64,000 nucleotides of DNA, from assembly GCA_024278975.1 (NCBI GenBank), contig JAJRSD010000105.1, forward strand, positions 1 to 64,000, read 5' to 3'. Made by a program: the position numbers and the translations under genes. Origin of the DNA: Bacteroidota bacterium (GTDB taxonomy: Bacteria; Bacteroidota; Bacteroidia; Bacteroidales; Prolixibacteraceae). Each line of letters starts with the position of its first letter. Positions within the stretch are counted from its first letter, which is position 1. The notes under the pieces are model-generated. The model searched no databases and had not been told where the DNA came from. It was given only the letters and a program-made list of their open reading frames with translations. Shown piece by piece: positions 1 to 61,065 of the stretch.

Positions 1-45
1 GTGGTCAGATTTATCTGACTGCAAAATTATCAGGGTGAGTAATCC
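1..45 (+). repeat. Family A hairpin repeat, partial copy (A0)
   Basis: This is the right half of the family A element described at 3955-4545. It holds the second hairpin, with loop core AGATTTATCT, and the terminal CAGGGTGAGTAATC arm. The left half lies outside the window. It shows that the repeats also flank the downstream side of the PorP gene, so the surface-protein locus is bracketed by them. Confidence 0.85.
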
Positions 46-143
46 AAACCTAACAACCCATTTTCAGTAAGCACTCATATACATCTCCTTTTGTAGCCGC
101 TCCTTTAAATTTAGCACCACGGCGATCCGGGTTTCATACGTAT

Positions 144-1052
144 TTATTGAAATAAATCAAAATTATAACCAAACATTATTTCGTGGGTTCCATTGTTAAA
201 GGTATTTAGGTTTGTATAGGTAATATCGTATGAGTAGCCAATTCGTATTTTCTTTATTTTAAATTGTGCCAGAATACCGTAAGAATCGTTTAGGCGAAAC
301 ATTCCGCCAACCCAAAATTGCTCTTTAAAACCTACCATTGCAGTGAGATCCCATGTAACCGGAGCAATTTTAACATACCTTATCATCGAGCTTGCTTTTA
401 ACTGGATATTCTCGCCCAGAATAAATTTTCTGCCGGCAATAAAATAGAGATGAATCTCCTCTCTTTGAACATAATCGGTTTCATAATCATCGCGGTTAAT
501 AGTGTTTCTGATAAGTTTTGGTACCGAAAATCCAAAGTAAGTCTGGTCGGAGTAGAGATAAAATCCAACTCCGAAATTTGGGAGGAAATTTTTATAAATA
601 TCTCTGGAAAATATTGGATCGGGATCAATCGGATCCAACTCGGTAAGTGCAGCCCGGTAGAAACTAACACCTCCTTTTAAACCCATTCCAAGTCTGAATT
701 TTTCTGAGATTTTTAAAAAATGGGAGTAATCGAAGTAAACACCGGTCTGTTTTTGAGGTCCTATTTTATCGTTTAATACAGAAAAACCAAGTCCTGTATT
801 TTTATCCTTTAAATGTGTATTATACGAAAACGAAAGGGTTTTGGGTGCACCTTCGAACTGTACCCACTGATTGCGCGATACCATCATAAAACTACCCAAC
901 TCTGCCGAACCGGCAAATCCCGGGTTTATAACAAGCAGGTTATCCATATATTGCGTGTACATCGGATCTTGTTGCGCATTAGCATTTTCTGTAAAAGCAA
1001 AAAGTGCTGATGCTACAATTAAAACAGACGATATTTTTCTCACTAATCTCAT
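144..1052 (-). CDS. PorP/SprF family type IX secretion outer-membrane protein
   Basis: A 302-residue protein with a signal peptide (about residues 1-26, ending in NANAQ) followed by QQDPMYTQYMDN, the usual start of mature PorP/SprF proteins, then a run of amphipathic beta strands ending in aromatic-rich GYNFDLF, as expected for an outer-membrane barrel. Family knowledge: PorP/SprF proteins help to export and anchor partner proteins carrying a type B (CHU_C/gliding) C-terminal domain. Here it lies four bases downstream of just such a protein (1057-3072) and is almost certainly co-transcribed with it. The start is the ATG at 1050-1052. Assignment to the family is firm; the dedicated pairing with its neighbour is inferred from context. 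Confidence 0.93.
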   Translation of the reverse strand: MRLVRKISSVLIVASALFAFTENANAQQDPMYTQYMDNLLVINPGFAGSAELGSFMMVSRNQWVQFEGAPKTLSFSYNTHLKDKNTGLGFSVLNDKIGPQKQTGVYFDYSHFLKISEKFRLGMGLKGGVSFYRAALTELDPIDPDPIFSRDIYKNFLPNFGVGFYLYSDQTYFGFSVPKLIRNTINRDDYETDYVQREEIHLYFIAGRKFILGENIQLKASSMIRYVKIAPVTWDLTAMVGFKEQFWVGGMFRLNDSYGILAQFKIKKIRIGYSYDITYTNLNTFNNGTHEIMFGYNFDLFQ

Positions 1053-3082: not shown

Positions 3083-3892
3083 TTAGTTAGTACCAATAGT
3101 TGTTGTGTGTGGTCTTGCTACATCAGTATCGTCAGCTGCAGTACCGCTTCCATTATCAGTAACGCCATGACTTGTTATACCATTTGAATGGGTAACCGCT
3201 TGGTTAAAGTCAGCTGCAGTACCATTAGGATCTGTTGAATTGTCGTACAGTGTAGCATTAGTAATAACAAACTGTAAGGTTACGGCGTTTGCATCATTTA
3301 CAGTTACAGTACCTGCTGTAACAGATCCATTTCCTGAAGTAACAGTTGGAACAGAAGATAACCCAGCAGTCGGCGTAAATACGTCGGCTATATCAAACGT
3401 GTAACCCGTTGCAGTTCCAAGTCCGGTTGGTGTTACAACATAAGAAACTGTGGCAGTTCCATGATTATATTTTGGAGTGTTTCCATTTAAGGTTACAACA
3501 ACATCATTATCGTAACAAGCAGTTGTTGTTTGATTAGATGCAATACTTAAATAAAACTGACTTTCTGTAATTTGCACAGGTAGTACCTTGTGGTTTGTAC
3601 ATGAACCATCATTTTCAATAACGTGTACATAGTACCAATCACCCACTGCTACGCTTGATGCCCATGTAATTGTAATTGCTGCACCTGTTGTACCTGACAA
3701 AACTGCATCTGCTCCGGCATCTGTTGATAAATCACCTTTTGTTACCGACCAAGTATAGGTGTTACTGTTATCTGTGACAGAATATGCCCACGTAGAACCA
3801 GGAGTTGGAGTTTCCCCTGTGTTTTGTGCAAACAAATTCGAACTAATTGCGGTCAATAAAACCGCTGCAAAAATTAAAACTAACTTTTTCAT
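3083..3892 (-). CDS. Small secreted Ig-like protein, paralogue of 5280-6044
   Basis: A 269-residue protein with a clear signal peptide (about 1-22, ending NLFAQ), rich in Thr, Ser, Val and Asn with predicted all-beta character. Near the N-terminus the pattern GSTWAYSVTDNSNTYTWSV matches GSTHDYTVTAESTGNTLAWSV in the protein at 5280-6044, so the two are paralogues. The C-terminus ends in HTTTIGTN, resembling the PNTxxIxxD ends of the other two secreted proteins of this locus. No known family is recognised. It sits 10 bases upstream of the CHU_C protein, so co-transcription is likely. I infer a structural subunit or partner of the surface protein; function is not known. Confidence 0.75.
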   Translation of the reverse strand: MKKLVLIFAAVLLTAISSNLFAQNTGETPTPGSTWAYSVTDNSNTYTWSVTKGDLSTDAGADAVLSGTTGAAITITWASSVAVGDWYYVHVIENDGSCTNHKVLPVQITESQFYLSIASNQTTTACYDNDVVVTLNGNTPKYNHGTATVSYVVTPTGLGTATGYTFDIADVFTPTAGLSSVPTVTSGNGSVTAGTVTVNDANAVTLQFVITNATLYDNSTDPNGTAADFNQAVTHSNGITSHGVTDNGSGTAADDTDVARPHTTTIGTN

Positions 3893-3954: not shown

Positions 3955-4545
3955 GATGACTCTCCCTCTTATCCCTCTCTTTGCAAAGAGAGGGACGATA
4001 CAGCAGTGGTCTGATTTATCAGACTGCTGTTGTTGCAGGGTGAGTAATCTCACATTAAGTTTTTATTTTTTTCTTTTTAATACTCATGTCTTAAAATATT
4101 TTTGTCTGATATTTTTTCAGATGACTCTCCCTCTTATCCCTCTCTTTGCAAAGAGAGGGACGATACAGCAGTGGTCTGATTTATCAGACTGCTGTTGTAG
4201 CAGGGTGAGTAATCTCACATTAAGTTTTTATTTTTTTCTTTTTAATACTCATATCTTAAAATATTTTTGTCTGATATATTTTTAGATGACTCTCCCTCTT
4301 ATCCCTCTCTTTGCAAAGAGAGGGACGATACGGCAGTGGTCTGATTTATCAGACTGCTGTTGTAGCAGGGTGAGTAATCTCACATTAAGTTTCTATTCTT
4401 TTCTTTTTAATACTCATATTTTAAAATCTTTTTGTCTGATATATTTTTAGATGACTCTCCCTCTTATCCCTCTCTTCGCGAAGAGAGGGACGATTATTTG
4501 GTAGTCAGATTTATCTGACTGCCAAATAATCAGGGTGAGTAATCT
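3955..4545 (+). repeat. Family A multi-hairpin repeats, copies A1-A4
   Basis: Four direct copies of a ~96-nt element at 3955-4050, 4120-4215, 4285-4380 and 4450-4545, with a 165-base period; the ~69-base AT-rich linkers are also conserved. Each copy has an outer arm (GACTCTCCCTC), a perfect hairpin (CTCTCTTTGCAAAGAGAG in A1-A3, CTCTCTTCGCGAAGAGAG in A4), a second hairpin with a constant TGATTTATCA or AGATTTATCT core but variable arms, and a closing CAGGGTGAGTAATCT that is nearly complementary to the outer arm. Arms change together between copies, so pairing is conserved. The copies fill the gap upstream of the secreted protein at 3083 and abut the DUF559 gene. Confidence 0.95.
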
Positions 4546-4562
4546 ATGTTTCTTTTCATATC

Positions 4563-4940
4563 TTAATATCCTTCTCTAAAAATAAAACTCTCAATATCTT
4601 TTAAAACCTGTCCAATATTTCTAATCTCTTCATTTTTAAATCTCTTTATTCTTAGCCCCATATTGGTCAGTATTTCCTCTCGCCGATTATCGTAATCTTT
4701 TTGAAAGTCATGTATTTTACCATCAATTTCTATAATTACTTTTTTCTCGGCACAATAAAAATCGGGAACAAAAAACAGTGGTTTATAATTAATTGTATCG
4801 TACACAATAGGATGTTGCCTGTTGAATTTTAATCCAAAAAACTTTCTCCCCCTTAGTTTTTGCCATAATATTTTTTCTTCCTCCGTCATATTTTTACGAA
4901 GTTGTCTGGCTCTTTCTATTGGTGTATGATCGTTACTCAT
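4563..4940 (-). CDS. DUF559 (Vsr-like) endonuclease-domain protein, repeat-embedded
   Basis: A 125-residue protein of the usual size for DUF559 (PF04480), a family structurally related to very-short-patch-repair endonucleases. Visible hallmarks are ARQLRKNMTEEEKILWQKLR at the N-terminus, KFNRQHPIVYDTI, the FVPDFYCAEKKVIIEIDG nuclease core with probable catalytic D and E residues, and HDFQKDYDNRRE. The gene sits between family A copies A4 and A5, with 17 bases on one side and 18 on the other, and no other gene. It therefore looks like part of the repeat element rather than of the surface-protein operon. The nuclease fold is well supported; the link with repeat mobility or maintenance is inference. 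A second DUF559 gene in an equivalent setting is at 60473-60850. Confidence 0.9.
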   Translation of the reverse strand: MSNDHTPIERARQLRKNMTEEEKILWQKLRGRKFFGLKFNRQHPIVYDTINYKPLFFVPDFYCAEKKVIIEIDGKIHDFQKDYDNRREEILTNMGLRIKRFKNEEIRNIGQVLKDIESFIFREGY

Positions 4941-4958
4941 TAATTGTTTTATACTTTC

Positions 4959-5219
4959 GATGACTCTCCCTCTTATCCCTCTCTACGCGTAGAGAGGGAC
5001 GATACAGCAGTGGTCTGATTTATCAGACTGCTGTTGTATCAGGGTGAGTAATCTCACATTAAGTTTTTATTTTTTTCTTTTTAATACTCATATCTTAAAA
5101 TCTTTTTGTCTAATATATTTTTAGATTACTCTCCCTCTTCTCCCTCTCTACGCGTAGAGAGGGACGATTGTTGAGTGCTATGATTTATCATAGCACTCAA
5201 CAATCAGGGTGAGTAATCT
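4959..5219 (+). repeat. Family A multi-hairpin repeats, copies A5-A6
   Basis: Two further copies (4959-5054, 5124-5219) in the same orientation and with the same 165-base period. Both have the first hairpin as CTCTCTACGCGTAGAGAG. In A6 the second hairpin is rewritten as GTTGAGTGCTATGAT/ATCATAGCACTCAAC, a perfect stem of about 19 bp including flanks, around the constant TT loop. It shares little arm sequence with A1-A3, which is good evidence that structure rather than sequence is kept. Confidence 0.95.
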
Positions 5220-5279
5220 ATATTTTTGTCTCTTTTTCTTTCTCAATACTCATATCTCAAAATATTTTTGTCTGATAAA

Positions 5280-6044
5280 TTAATCGGTTGTAATACTAGA
5301 GGTGTTTGGTAGTGCATTAATAGTTTGCGTAGCATCCCAATCATCACTATCCACATCGGGTGTATTGTAATCTAACTCTATTGCAGCGGTAATTGCAAGT
5401 GCAACAGATTGTACTGCAAAAGCATCTCCTGTTACATCCATTGTAATTGTTACGCTCCCGATTCCACTTGTACTTGTTAATGCTGTCAGGTTATATGGTC
5501 CTGTTCCTGTTAATGTGCCTCCCGATACGGTTACATTTGCAATGGTTGCTGTTCCTGCAGGAGTTAAGGTAAAGTCAATTTCCCAGTTGGGGCTCCAACT
5601 TGCATTCGCAGTGGTCATATTAACTGTAAAAGTGATTGATGTTGTCGCATCACCCGATGGGTTTACAGTTCCATCTTTGGCGTTACATGTTGCAGAGGGG
5701 TTGGAAGTACTAACATCGAAAGTGTTTGCTGAAACTACAACTGTTGCTTGACGCAGGGTTATACAACTGCTTCCGTTTGTCTCTCTAAATTGTAATGTGT
5801 ATGTACCCGCAGTATTCCATGTAATATTTACGGTTTCAGAAGCTGCCCCGGAATTTATATCGTATTCCGTTCCGTCATTTCCTTCAACAACACTCCATGC
5901 CAAAGTATTACCGGTACTTTCTGCTGTAACGGTGTAATCGTGTGTAGAACCAACAAGAGGTGTTAAACCTCCCTGTGCCATAACCACTGTGCTAACGAGC
6001 ATAAAAGCTACGGCTGCAATTAAATAAGTAAAAATCTTTTTCAT
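5280..6044 (-). CDS. Small secreted Ig-like protein, paralogue of 3083-3892
   Basis: A 254-residue protein with a signal peptide at about 1-23 (ending VVMAQ). The N-terminal segment GSTHDYTVTAESTGNTLAWSV aligns with the paralogue at 3083-3892. The rest is low-charge, Thr/Val-rich beta-type sequence with two Cys in each half, and the end is LPNTSSITTD. That tail resembles VPNTGNIIPD at the end of the 1025-residue protein upstream, suggesting a shared terminal domain. No database family is recognised. Family A repeats lie on both sides. Probably a component or cargo of the same T9SS/PorP surface system (inference). Confidence 0.75.
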   Translation of the reverse strand: MKKIFTYLIAAVAFMLVSTVVMAQGGLTPLVGSTHDYTVTAESTGNTLAWSVVEGNDGTEYDINSGAASETVNITWNTAGTYTLQFRETNGSSCITLRQATVVVSANTFDVSTSNPSATCNAKDGTVNPSGDATTSITFTVNMTTANASWSPNWEIDFTLTPAGTATIANVTVSGGTLTGTGPYNLTALTSTSGIGSVTITMDVTGDAFAVQSVALAITAAIELDYNTPDVDSDDWDATQTINALPNTSSITTD

Positions 6045-6090
6045 TTTTTATTGTTTTTAAAAGTTTGTAATTAATTATTTTGTCTGTTTT

Positions 6091-6514
6091 ATTACTCTCC
6101 CTCTTATCCCTCTCTTTGCAAAGAGAGGGACGATACCGCAGTGGTCTGATTTATCAGACTGCTGTTGTTGCAGGGTGAGTAATCTCACATTAAGTTTCTA
6201 TTCTTTTATTTTTAATACTCATATTTTAAAATCTTTTTGCCTGATATTTCTTAGATGACTCTCCCTCTTATCCCTCTCTTTGCAAAGAGAGGGACGATAC
6301 CGCAGTGGTCTGATTTATCAGACTGCTGTTGTTGCAGGGTGAGTAATCTCACATTAAGTTTCTATTCTTTTCTTTTTAATACTCATATCTTAATATCTTC
6401 TTATCTAATATATTTTTAGATGACTCTCCCTCTTATCCCTCTCTTTGCAAAGAGAGGGACGATACCGCAGTAGTCTGATTTATCAGACTGCTGTTGTTGC
6501 AGGGTGAGTAATCT
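6091..6514 (+). repeat. Family A multi-hairpin repeats, copies A7-A9
   Basis: Three copies (6091-6185, 6254-6349, 6419-6514), all with the CTCTCTTTGCAAAGAGAG hairpin and the CAGTGGTCTGATTTATCAGACTG hairpin type (A9 has a G-to-A change in the arm). They occupy almost the whole gap between the two upstream secreted-protein genes, so any transcript crossing this gap would carry three folded elements. Confidence 0.95.
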
Positions 6515-47435: not shown

Positions 47436-47471
47436 TCCTCCCCTTTCGGGGGAGTTAGAGGGGGCTTTCCT
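47436..47471 (+). repeat. Solo hairpin repeat related to families A and B
   Basis: CTCCCCTTTCGGGGGAG followed by TTAGAGGGGGC shows the same 'C-run, G-run, spacer, second G-run' layout as the family A and B modules. It overlaps the stop codon region of the TrpB-like gene and may serve as its terminator. Confidence 0.6.
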
Positions 47472-59542: not shown

Positions 59543-60460
59543 TCCTCGTCCCCCTTTGTAAAGGGGGAATAAAAGGGGGATTTTCTTTCTTCAATTTTTA
59601 TAATCCATCTATCGTATAACCATTTTAATCATCCGTCACGCAATAGCGCGACACCTCCTTTAGAAAAGGAGGAGTCGTTCGTGTCAGATATTTTTTCGAG
59701 AGAATTTGTTTTTTTTCCTTGTCCCCCTTTGTAAAGGGGGAATAAAAGGGGGATTTTCTTTCTTCAATTTTTATATAATCCATCTATCGTATAACCATTT
59801 TAATCCTCCGTCACGCAATAGCGCGACACCTCCTTTAGAAAAGGAGGACTCATTCGTGTCAGATATTTTTTCGAGAGAATTTGTTTTTTTTCCTTGTCCC
59901 CCTTTGTAAAGGGGGAATAAAAGGGGGATTTTCTTTCTTCAATTTATGTAATCGCTCCATTGTATAACCATTTTAATCATCCGTCACGCAATAGCGCGAC
60001 ACCTCCTTTAGAAAAGGAGGACTCGTTCGTGTCAGATATTTTTCGAGAGAATTTGTTTTTTTTCCTCGTCCCCCTTAGTAAAGGGGGAATAAAAGGGGGA
60101 TTTTCTTTCTTCAATTTTTATAATCCATCTATCGTATAACCATTTTAATCATCCGTCACGCAATAGCGCGACACCTCCTTTAGAAAAGGAGGACTTATTC
60201 GTGTCAAATATTTTTTCGAGAAAAACTGTTTTTTTCCTCGTCCCCCTTAGTAAAAGGGGGAATAAAAGGGGGATTTTCTTTCTTCAATTTTTATAATCCA
60301 TCCATTGTATAACCATTTTAATCATCCGTCACGCAATAGCGCGACACCTCCTTTAGAAAAGGAGGAGTCGTTCGTGTCAGATATTTTTTCGAGAAAAACT
60401 GTTTTTTTCCTCGTCCCCCTTAGTAAAAGGGGGAATAAAAGGGGGATTTCTTCAATCTAA
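59543..60460 (+). repeat. Family B multi-hairpin repeat array (copies B1-B6)
   Basis: Tandem units start near 59543, 59716, 59891, 60063, 60235 and 60408, with a period of about 173 bases. Each full unit has TCCCCCTTTGTAAAGGGGGA, then AATAAAAGGGGGATT; a linker ending in ATAACCATTTTAAT; GTCACGC/GCGCGAC; and ACCTCCTTTAGAAAAGGAGG, before a T-rich stretch. The first C-run can pair with either of two G-runs. B6 is cut short just before the DUF559 stop. The array fills the 968 bases between the lipoprotein start and the DUF559 gene. Confidence 0.95.
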
Positions 60461-60472
60461 TTTACAGATATC

Positions 60473-60850
60473 TTAAATCCAGTTTTTCTGTTCCTCAATA
60501 CATTCAATAGCATAATCAATTTCGGCAACCACTTCATCAATTCGATAGACAACTCTTGCTTCAGAAAAACGCAAAAATTGAAATCCTAAATCTTCAATGT
60601 ATTTTTGCCTTTCGTAATCTTCTTCTGATTTTCCTATGTGCGAATTCCCGTCAATCTCGATAATCAACTTTAATTTTCTTGAAATAAAATCTACGATATA
60701 ATTATCAATAATATACTGACGGTTAAATTGATATCCTCTCATTTGACGTGCTTTTAAAACATCGCGCCAAAGAATTGCCTCCCCTTTTGTTCCATGTTTT
60801 CTTAGTTTGCGGGCAAATTGTATAAGATTTCTATTGTAGATGGTTTTCAT
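60473..60850 (-). CDS. DUF559 (Vsr-like) endonuclease-domain protein, repeat-embedded (second)
   Basis: A 125-residue protein, the same length as the gene at 4563-4940 and clearly related: ARKLRKHGTKGEAILWRDVL at the start, GYQFNRQYIIDNYIVDFISRKLKLIIEIDGNSH with the D and E of the nuclease core, then DYERQKYIEDLGFQFLRFSE. It lies between copies B6 and B7 of the family B repeats, in the orientation of the inner GGAGG-type hairpin. It is only distantly similar to the first DUF559 protein, so each repeat family appears to have its own nuclease. Enzymatic function is unproven. Confidence 0.9.
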   Translation of the reverse strand: MKTIYNRNLIQFARKLRKHGTKGEAILWRDVLKARQMRGYQFNRQYIIDNYIVDFISRKLKLIIEIDGNSHIGKSEEDYERQKYIEDLGFQFLRFSEARVVYRIDEVVAEIDYAIECIEEQKNWI

Positions 60851-60923: not shown

Positions 60924-61065
60924 TCCTCGTCCCCCTTTTGTAAAGGGGGAATAAAAGGGGGATTTTCTTTCTTCAATTTTTATAATCCATCTATCGTATA
61001 ACCATTTTAATCCTCCGTCACGCAATGGCGTGACACCTCCTTTAGAAAAGGAGGACTCGTTCTTA
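60924..61065 (+). repeat. Family B repeat, copy B7
   Basis: One unit on the far side of the DUF559 gene. It has CCCCCTTTTGTAAAGGGGG, the second G-run, and GTCACGC/GCGTGAC. In that hairpin the stem is perfect, whereas B1-B6 have GTCACGC/GCGCGAC with one G-T/A-C position, a compensatory-type difference. It ends with CCTCCTTTAGAAAAGGAGG. Confidence 0.9.

Follow-up and report, generated by a model that had tools for sequence, protein, structure and literature searches.

The BoxC/PIT/TM motif can be found in more than 260 genomes and has been linked to instability (Holder et al., 2015; PMC4666352). Triplex folding of the E. coli motif has been studied by circular dichroism and nuclear magnetic resonance, its sites are described as always intergenic and mobility activities were never found around them; in the accessible parts of that article, neither an endonuclease nor a DUF is mentioned (PMC4666352). 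CGTC-tagged REPs are likewise described without a dedicated transposase (Di Nocera, 2013), and two types of Rickettsia palindromic elements (RPE) are classed with such repeats (PMC3733652). With regard to the enzyme, one DUF559 gene has been assigned to the EDxHD homing endonucleases (PMC9403480). No publication tying DUF559 to repeats of the kind treated here was found in the open-access literature searched. The locus in question lies in the first 64,000 nucleotides (nt) of contig JAJRSD010000105.1 of a Prolixibacteraceae bacterium (Bacteroidota; assembly GCA_024278975.1), hereafter the window, where copies of a repeat of about 95 nt, family A, surround a DUF559 gene (PF04480), gene A. DUF559 is a tiny gene of many bacterial groups that usually adjoins hairpin/triplex repeats and in several cases sits with them in frame in essential genes; the missing driver of a widespread family of short mobile repeats is therefore probably DUF559.

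It is quite likely that the DUF559 protein is the nuclease of a mobile element with hairpin/triplex ends and that the gene-less copies derive from it. A small mobile element would then have its home in the family A array, with an autonomous unit running from a left end through the DUF559 gene to a right end, and the 95-nt gene-less copies would be its non-autonomous derivatives. Each end consists of a hairpin that has its outer purine arm mirrored just outside and that finishes in an inverted tag of a few bases (CTCACCC...GGGTGAG or AGCCCC...GGGGCT); owing to the mirrored purine arm, a single strand can fold back into an intrastrand triplex. The nuclease would recognise the folded end and nick or cut at its foot or next to it, whereupon repair or replication would copy the unit to another site or into a gene-less copy, and the gene-less copies would be mobilised in trans.

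Association of DUF559 genes with triplex-type ends

A triplex-type end is defined here as a G/C-rich hairpin with a mirror-order repeat of its outer purine arm immediately beyond it (class II intrastrand-triplex rule, PMC4666352), with loops of 1-6 under the strict rule and longer loops under the relaxed one. Such ends were looked for within 250 nt of the gene at 80 loci, the top-ranking ones among 381 related loci from a scan with the four small DUF559 proteins of this genome, selected by protein similarity and not by repeats (60 stand-alone genes and 20 within longer open reading frames, ORFs), with 551 genes from the same contigs as controls. Under the strict rule an end is present at 32/60 stand-alone and 18/20 in-ORF DUF559 genes vs 12/551 controls, and under the relaxed rule at 45/60 and 19/20 vs 13/551; after shuffling, the relaxed rule is satisfied at none of the 60 stand-alone loci. 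The median non-coding flank is longer at DUF559 genes than at controls (342 vs 190 nt), and among genes with at least 350 nt of non-coding flank a triplex-type end is found at 24 of 29 DUF559 genes vs 2 of 82 controls (p 2.6e-17). Two motifs are also enriched, CCCTCTC/GAGAGGG being found within 250 nt of 38/60 stand-alone DUF559 genes vs 5/551 controls (p 3e-39) and CTCACCC/GGGTGAG within the same distance of 29/60 vs 20/551. A hairpin with its outer 4-mer repeated outside on at least one side is less specific than the triplex rule (40/54 DUF559 genes vs 111/500 controls), and an earlier statistic comparing the upstream with the downstream flank (score of at least 50) gave 18/73 vs 8/542.

The 45 stand-alone loci positive by the relaxed rule include 31 of 41 from Bacteroidota, 4 of 5 from Cyanobacteriota and 2 of 2 from Chloroflexota, the other phyla contributing single loci; the one locus each from Calditrichota, Margulisiibacteriota and Pseudomonadota is negative by the triplex rule. 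In a sample of 60 genomes of the organism's own family, DUF559 is present in 41, with 0-9 matches per genome, some of them broken, and a triplex-type end accompanies 45/75 stand-alone and 17/20 in-ORF rows, one insertion being counted twice among the latter (L125 = L199). In this sample CCCTCTC (17/75 stand-alone loci) and CTCACCC (14/75) are rarer than in the cross-phylum set, and other end types seem to prevail. The triplex rule is also positive at 5 of 10 plasmid-collection loci, hand-picked from 35 records and covering alpha-, beta- and gammaproteobacteria, Deinococcus and a cyanobacterium; by eye, most of these ten show hairpins with a repeated arm. On two Deinococcus plasmids (L244, L248) DUF559 stands at two different positions of the hpa gene cluster, and on a Sphingomonas plasmid (L239) between transhydrogenase subunit genes.

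At the level of whole genomes, 167 CCCTCTC hairpins occur in the 41 own-family genomes with DUF559 and 12 in the 19 without, and the count per genome rises with the DUF559 count, partial and in-ORF matches included (Spearman 0.52, p 1.7e-5, 60 genomes). The full 95-nt form of family A is found only in this genome among the 60, while its left half occurs in nine, all of which bear DUF559 (against 41/60 overall); by coordinates it adjoins DUF559 in three of the nine (this genome, G042 and G050). As to whether the repeats occur independently of DUF559, as the sequence-only reading of the window had asked, copies away from the gene do occur: half of the family A places lie off the array, and a third of the nine genomes have an adjoining copy; every one of the nine carries the gene.

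The protein encoded by gene A was modelled with AlphaFold2 from 35 sequences (mean pLDDT 89.4). Its closest solved structures, by fold and sequence profile, are 3HRL, a putative endonuclease from Neisseria, and 3R3P, the catalytic domain of the homing endonuclease I-Bth0305I (E 1.5e-6 by sequence profile and 6.8e-4 by fold), the latter being the nearest characterised structure to DUF559. Residues invariant in the 35-sequence alignment include E21, D59, E70, D72, H76 and D83. By likeness of model and profile, the DUF559 protein is an EDxHD/Vsr-type nuclease.

The family A array and the predicted fold of its repeats

The window contains nine full family A copies and one 3' half copy (Table 1), as the sequence-only reading had it, and comparison within the window and the genome bears this count out. 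Hairpin 1 is indeed found in three versions, with the centres TTTGCAAA, TTCGCGAA and TACGCGTA, and alignment of the copies confirmed that hairpin 2 is swapped in copies A4 and A6 with its pairing retained; the kept ends of the family read ACTC...GAGTAATC. The array has a period of about 165 nt because an AT-rich spacer repeats along with the copies. Gene A had been taken for the only gene inside the array, which proved wrong, since an ORF of 254 amino acids (aa) without a Pfam match sits between A6 and A7 (5280-6044). Just ahead of the array lies an ORF of 269 aa (3083-3892), also without a Pfam match; by eye, both ORFs have signal-like N-termini.

Across the genome (4.65 Mb, 115 contigs), family A occupies 18 places, 15 of them full and three partial, nine within the array and nine off it; the genome BLAST with the repeat returned 25 rows, self-inverted rows included. 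Eight places (six full, two partial) are on other contigs, and copy A4 shares 91-93% identity with the six full copies found there. Some dispersed copies (window 1-150; L014, L015, L016, L019 and L028) appear by eye to be nested inside a repeat of about 220 nt (CATACGTATATATTTACATTAAAC ... GGGTTTCATACGTA), which looks like an independent second mobile repeat taking family A along as cargo.

Covariation was assessed on 14 distinct copies of the 15 full ones, all from this one genome. In the family A structure 94.2% of cells are paired, and 11 two-sided pair changes are observed vs a shuffled mean of 6.8 (standard deviation 1.0). The covariation score is 0.234 vs 0.077 for shuffled alignments, with none of 500 shuffles reaching the observed value, and structures slid along the alignment score at most 0.090. 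The changes include the exchange of hairpin 2 as a block and the inversion of an apical T-A pair in some copies. The covariation asserted by the sequence-only reading is therefore significant in these copies, but it is no proof of selection on folded RNA or single-stranded DNA, because template switching from arm to arm can perfect palindromes. Template switching between the arms of a DNA palindrome produces the same covariation signature. That such switching during replication, rather than selection for the fold, perfected these palindromes is a serious possibility, although we lean somewhat against it: block exchange and the inverted T-A pair are what arm-to-arm correction is expected to leave, whereas CCCTCTC and the tags recur next to DUF559 across phyla, and mutation bias alone would not preserve them.

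PF04480 has five matches in this genome, namely four small genes and one match within a 1346-aa ORF. The four small genes belong to four different repeat families (A, B, C and D), two of which are in the window. Family B, which the sequence-only reading of family A did not mention, lies at 59.4-61.1 kb and comprises seven hairpin copies around DUF559 gene B; family C, on contig 30, has three copies flanking its DUF559 gene on both sides; family D, on contig 104, is merely a two-copy repeat, again flanking DUF559 on both sides, at a contig edge. No comparable repeat was found in the 3.2-kb locus of the fifth match. A single-rule triplex scan of the window returned 18 matches, of which 16 are the nine family A and seven family B copies (stems of 8-10, first loop 2-5, second loop 4-5, at most one mismatch) and two are an overlapping match in copy A4 and a solo end at 47438. 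The name of the gene beside this solo end, TrpB-like, was assigned by eye only, and no ORF of at least 90 aa lies between the solo end and the neighbouring genes; it resembles the right ends of ValRS inserts in relatives. At another locus (L001:1459-1881), the C-terminus of the DUF559 protein (TSPNLSKGEG) is encoded within its own end repeat.

Table 1. Positions of the repeat copies, DUF559 genes and solo end in the 64,000-nt window
Feature	Position	Strand	Remarks
Family A 3' half copy (hairpin 2 + tag GGGTGAGTAATC)	1..44	+	truncated by contig start
Family A copy A1	3955..4049	+	triplex motif 3958-3995
Family A copy A2	4120..4214	+	triplex motif 4123-4160
Family A copy A3	4285..4379	+	triplex motif 4288-4325
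Family A copy A4	4450..4544	+	triplex motif 4453-4490
DUF559 gene A (PF04480, 125 aa)	4563..4940	-	Pfam E 1e-30; between copies A4 and A5
Family A copy A5	4959..5053	+	triplex motif 4962-4999
Family A copy A6	5124..5218	+	triplex motif 5127-5164; hairpin 2 is a full palindrome
Family A copy A7	6090..6184	+	triplex motif 6093-6130, zero mismatch
Family A copy A8	6254..6348	+	triplex motif 6257-6294
Family A copy A9	6419..6513	+	triplex motif 6422-6459
Solo right-end-type hairpin + tag (CTCCCCTTTCGGGGGAGTTAGAGGGGGCT)	47438..47468	+	just past TrpB-like gene end
Family B triplex motif copy 1	59549..59582	+	
Family B triplex motif copy 2	59722..59755	+	
Family B triplex motif copy 3	59897..59930	+	
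Family B triplex motif copy 4	60069..60101	+	
Family B triplex motif copy 5	60241..60274	+	
Family B triplex motif copy 6	60414..60447	+	
DUF559 gene B (125 aa)	60473..60850	-	between family B copies 6 and 7
Family B triplex motif copy 7	60930..60964	+	

DUF559 units inside host genes and their history

DUF559 together with its ends can be found in frame within ileS (L190, L199), valS (L189, L194), leuS (L065), tsaB (L063) and hsdR (L196), the host genes being named by NCBIfam and Pfam. In the loci inspected, an end is seen by eye on each side of the DUF559 domain. The orientation within host genes hardly varies: by the triplex rule, going upstream in 40 in-gene rows (two of which represent a single insertion), one first meets a left end in 32, a right end in 3 and no end in 5, and going downstream a right end in 15, a left end in 2 and no end in 23. 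LeuRS genes with an in-frame DUF559 and hairpin ends come mostly from Flavobacteriaceae and account for 18 rows of the first domain tree described below (L065, L067, L072, L078, L082, L086, L095, L098, L100, L102 and others); L065 was identified as leuS by NCBIfam, the other rows by their Pfam domains or by a landmark motif.

Uninterrupted relatives were seen for IleRS, ValRS and TsaB, the three hosts compared. Of the 57 genomes that gave an IleRS match, in part only a partial one, 7 have the filled form, and the 30 loci fetched comprise 7 filled, 22 without DUF559, three of which share a genus with a filled one, and the scar of this genome. ValRS is filled in 5 of 60 genomes, at a single site, and its 30 fetched loci comprise 4 filled, 25 uninterrupted and again the scar of this genome. 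Filled and unfilled members of the same genus were observed for both ileS and valS, and TsaB is uninterrupted in this genome where L063 carries 140 extra residues. In all four filled ValRS loci the frame is open across the insert, and reading back from the downstream landmark the first stop is met after 358-402 aa. The scars of this genome are one-ended, IleRS retaining a lone right-end-like stretch and ValRS a lone left end. The E. coli K-12 gene ycjD is also a DUF559 gene, with one triplex-type motif beside it (K-12 1351208-1351232); with a fabI-ycjD-sapF query, a single place covers at least 80% in 3362 of 5375 E. coli genomes with a match, and ycjD appears to be polymorphic in the species.

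The descent of the inserts was followed in two trees. In a careful one, built from 101 distinct DUF559 domains of 101/183 loci after exclusion of rows running past the gene stop, gene A among them, all IleRS inserts group in a single clade (99/99), as do all ValRS inserts (100/100). In a quick one (185 rows from 181/183 loci, 177 distinct, three rows excluded as short), each of the two groups stays undivided when compared with the remaining in-gene groups (98 and 100). LeuRS inserts entail two to four changes depending on the tree (four in the quick one), and a single origin is compatible with both. In a tree of 30 host IleRS sequences, the filled state takes five changes, four of them forced by well-supported branches, and the scarred IleRS of this genome has a filled sequence as its sister. 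Since the inserts of each site form one clade and occupancy is patchy, each site was colonised by one lineage and is now patchy, a pattern that both homing into an empty allele and vertical descent with loss would fit; judging from these sequences, the present patchiness may reflect horizontal homing, repeated loss, or both.

These observations also bear on another account, in which DUF559 is a homing endonuclease that cuts a duplex site, either in a repeat lacking the gene or in a host gene still uninterrupted, after which break repair copies the gene in; the repeats would serve as landing sites and the hairpins be a by-product, with no transposition of ends. We regard this as possible yet rather doubtful. 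In its favour, I-Bth0305I is the nearest structure, and the single IleRS and ValRS sites are patchily filled by inserts of one clade each. Homing alone does not explain the preservation of hairpin/triplex ends across phyla or the dispersed gene-less copies, and no intein domain is among the matches of the scanned host proteins, whose ORFs continue through the insert (no Rfam intron search was made).

Standing of the mobile-element proposal and comparison with known systems

The proposal that DUF559 moves a hairpin/triplex-ended element is supported by the controlled association, the in-frame occupation of host genes and the EDxHD/Vsr-like fold, and with them the general idea of the sequence-only reading, a nuclease-associated repeat analogous in concept to REP/RAYT with a Vsr-like enzyme, is upheld. 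Several points weigh against it. Movement and cleavage by DUF559 are what we infer from sequence and a model. No triplex-type end satisfies the relaxed rule in 15/60 cross-phylum stand-alone loci, 30/75 own-family stand-alone rows and 5/10 plasmid loci, many of the negative loci showing other hairpins by eye, and within host genes the rule is satisfied on both sides in 16 of the 40 rows, on one side in 20 and on neither in 4. CCCTCTC hairpins are present in 24/41 own-family genomes with DUF559 vs 6/19 without, a non-significant difference (Fisher p 0.095), and six of the nine genomes with the family A left half have no copy adjoining DUF559. Stand-alone genes occur both within units (left end-gene-right end, 9/60) and between units (e.g., right end-gene-left end, 6/60), which allows more than one delimitation of the mobile unit. 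Insertion is not letter-perfect either, since a small number of host codons, such as those for GEDG in ValRS, distinguish filled from empty IleRS and ValRS sites, and in the three partial-match E. coli genomes that were opened an efflux operon adjoins sapF instead of ycjD, with no clean empty site. Because the IleRS and ValRS inserts each form one clade, their patchy pattern could reflect old insertions lost many times instead of repeated invasion.

It is very improbable that the repeats serve the host in a structural or regulatory capacity, such as terminators, nucleoid sites or mRNA stabilisers, with DUF559 as a chance neighbour. Many gene-adjacent hairpins serve as terminators, and any hairpin with a stem of at least 7 can be found near 278 of 500 control genes too. 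In the accessible text of Holder et al. (2015; PMC4666352), moreover, the motif is held to cause instability, with no mobility gene involved. However, the triplex-type end is rare at same-contig controls, as given above, units within coding genes contradict a purely regulatory role, and the presence of DUF559 among the own-family genomes is patchy. That Y1 (HUH) transposases encoded elsewhere in this genome move the repeats, as in strict REP/RAYT, with DUF559 as a passenger, is scarcely credible, since the genome does have eight Y1_Tnp matches, four of them small ORFs with strong scores, but CCCTCTC/GAGAGGG and CTCACCC/GGGTGAG occur at none of these four strong loci and a triplex-type end at none of the three tested. 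Other short repeats are seen by eye around the small, RAYT-like Y1 genes (L231, L233, L234).

In its widest form, the proposal of a DUF559-driven element is put forward tentatively and with some reserve: DUF559 might define a new class of mobile element, in which an EDxHD nuclease recognises triplex/hairpin ends and spreads a unit of about 0.4-0.5 kb, and gene-less copies in trans, through many phyla including E. coli K-12 (YcjD/BoxC), entering essential genes in frame and persisting there as an extra domain without splicing. This would give a likely role to a family still named DUF559, make YcjD and the BoxC copies of E. coli K-12 a laboratory system for the element, and describe a route into essential enzymes, aminoacyl-tRNA synthetases for instance, by which they gain new domains with no splicing of protein or RNA. 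A nuclease specific for triplexes or hairpins, should this one prove to be so, would also be of use as a structure-specific tool.

Among the systems described so far, BoxC/PIT/TM is like the repeats found here in having a pyrimidine arm, a purine arm and a mirrored third purine stretch, in being G/C-rich and in its presence in E. coli K-12. The 16 window copies show a class II (or complementary) intrastrand-triplex sequence with a stem of at least 6 and short loops, and the genome holds multiple copies (18 family A places and 17 CCCTCTC hairpins). In contrast, the BoxC/PIT/TM paper, in its accessible parts, ties no nuclease gene to the motif, which is found here within coding genes as well.

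The signature CGTCATTCCCG, which we take to be that of CGTC-REPs and RPEs, was considered because CGTC precedes some DUF559-associated hairpins; this link was dropped, as the signature occurs in none of 183 DUF559 loci, ten plasmid loci included, a set in which Alphaproteobacteria, the reported stronghold of these repeats (CGTC tag, stem of 8-9 bp), are barely sampled and which holds no Rickettsia locus. RPEs, known here by their description in PMC3733652, are likewise palindromic and in frame in ORFs. VsrA of Caulobacter is also a DUF559-domain, Vsr-like protein, with a DNA-damage phenotype (PMC12907096), though it is read there as acting in mismatch repair and the accessible text does not mention palindromes.

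I-Bth0305I (PDB 3R3P) resembles DUF559 in fold and family and in that its genes lie within conserved host genes. In contrast, no intron or intein domain was found around DUF559, within the limits of the intein and intron searches stated above; DUF559 is hairpin-ended and is read out as additional residues of the host protein. With REPIN/RAYT (PMC3733652), the element shares short hairpin repeats that are both dispersed and arrayed, a dedicated nuclease gene among them and inverted paired ends; dispersed non-autonomous palindromes are found together with copies flanking the enzyme gene (nine in the array, nine off it). The enzyme of REPIN/RAYT is of the HUH/Y1 type, whereas the partner here is PF04480, EDxHD/PD-(D/E)XK-like, and the REPIN/RAYT tag is GTAG, whereas CTCAC/GTGAG or AGCCCC tags and triplex-type ends are found here. 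We think that the hairpin/triplex element with DUF559 combines the logic of REP/RAYT with an enzyme of the homing-endonuclease type and, as tested, is a member of neither family.

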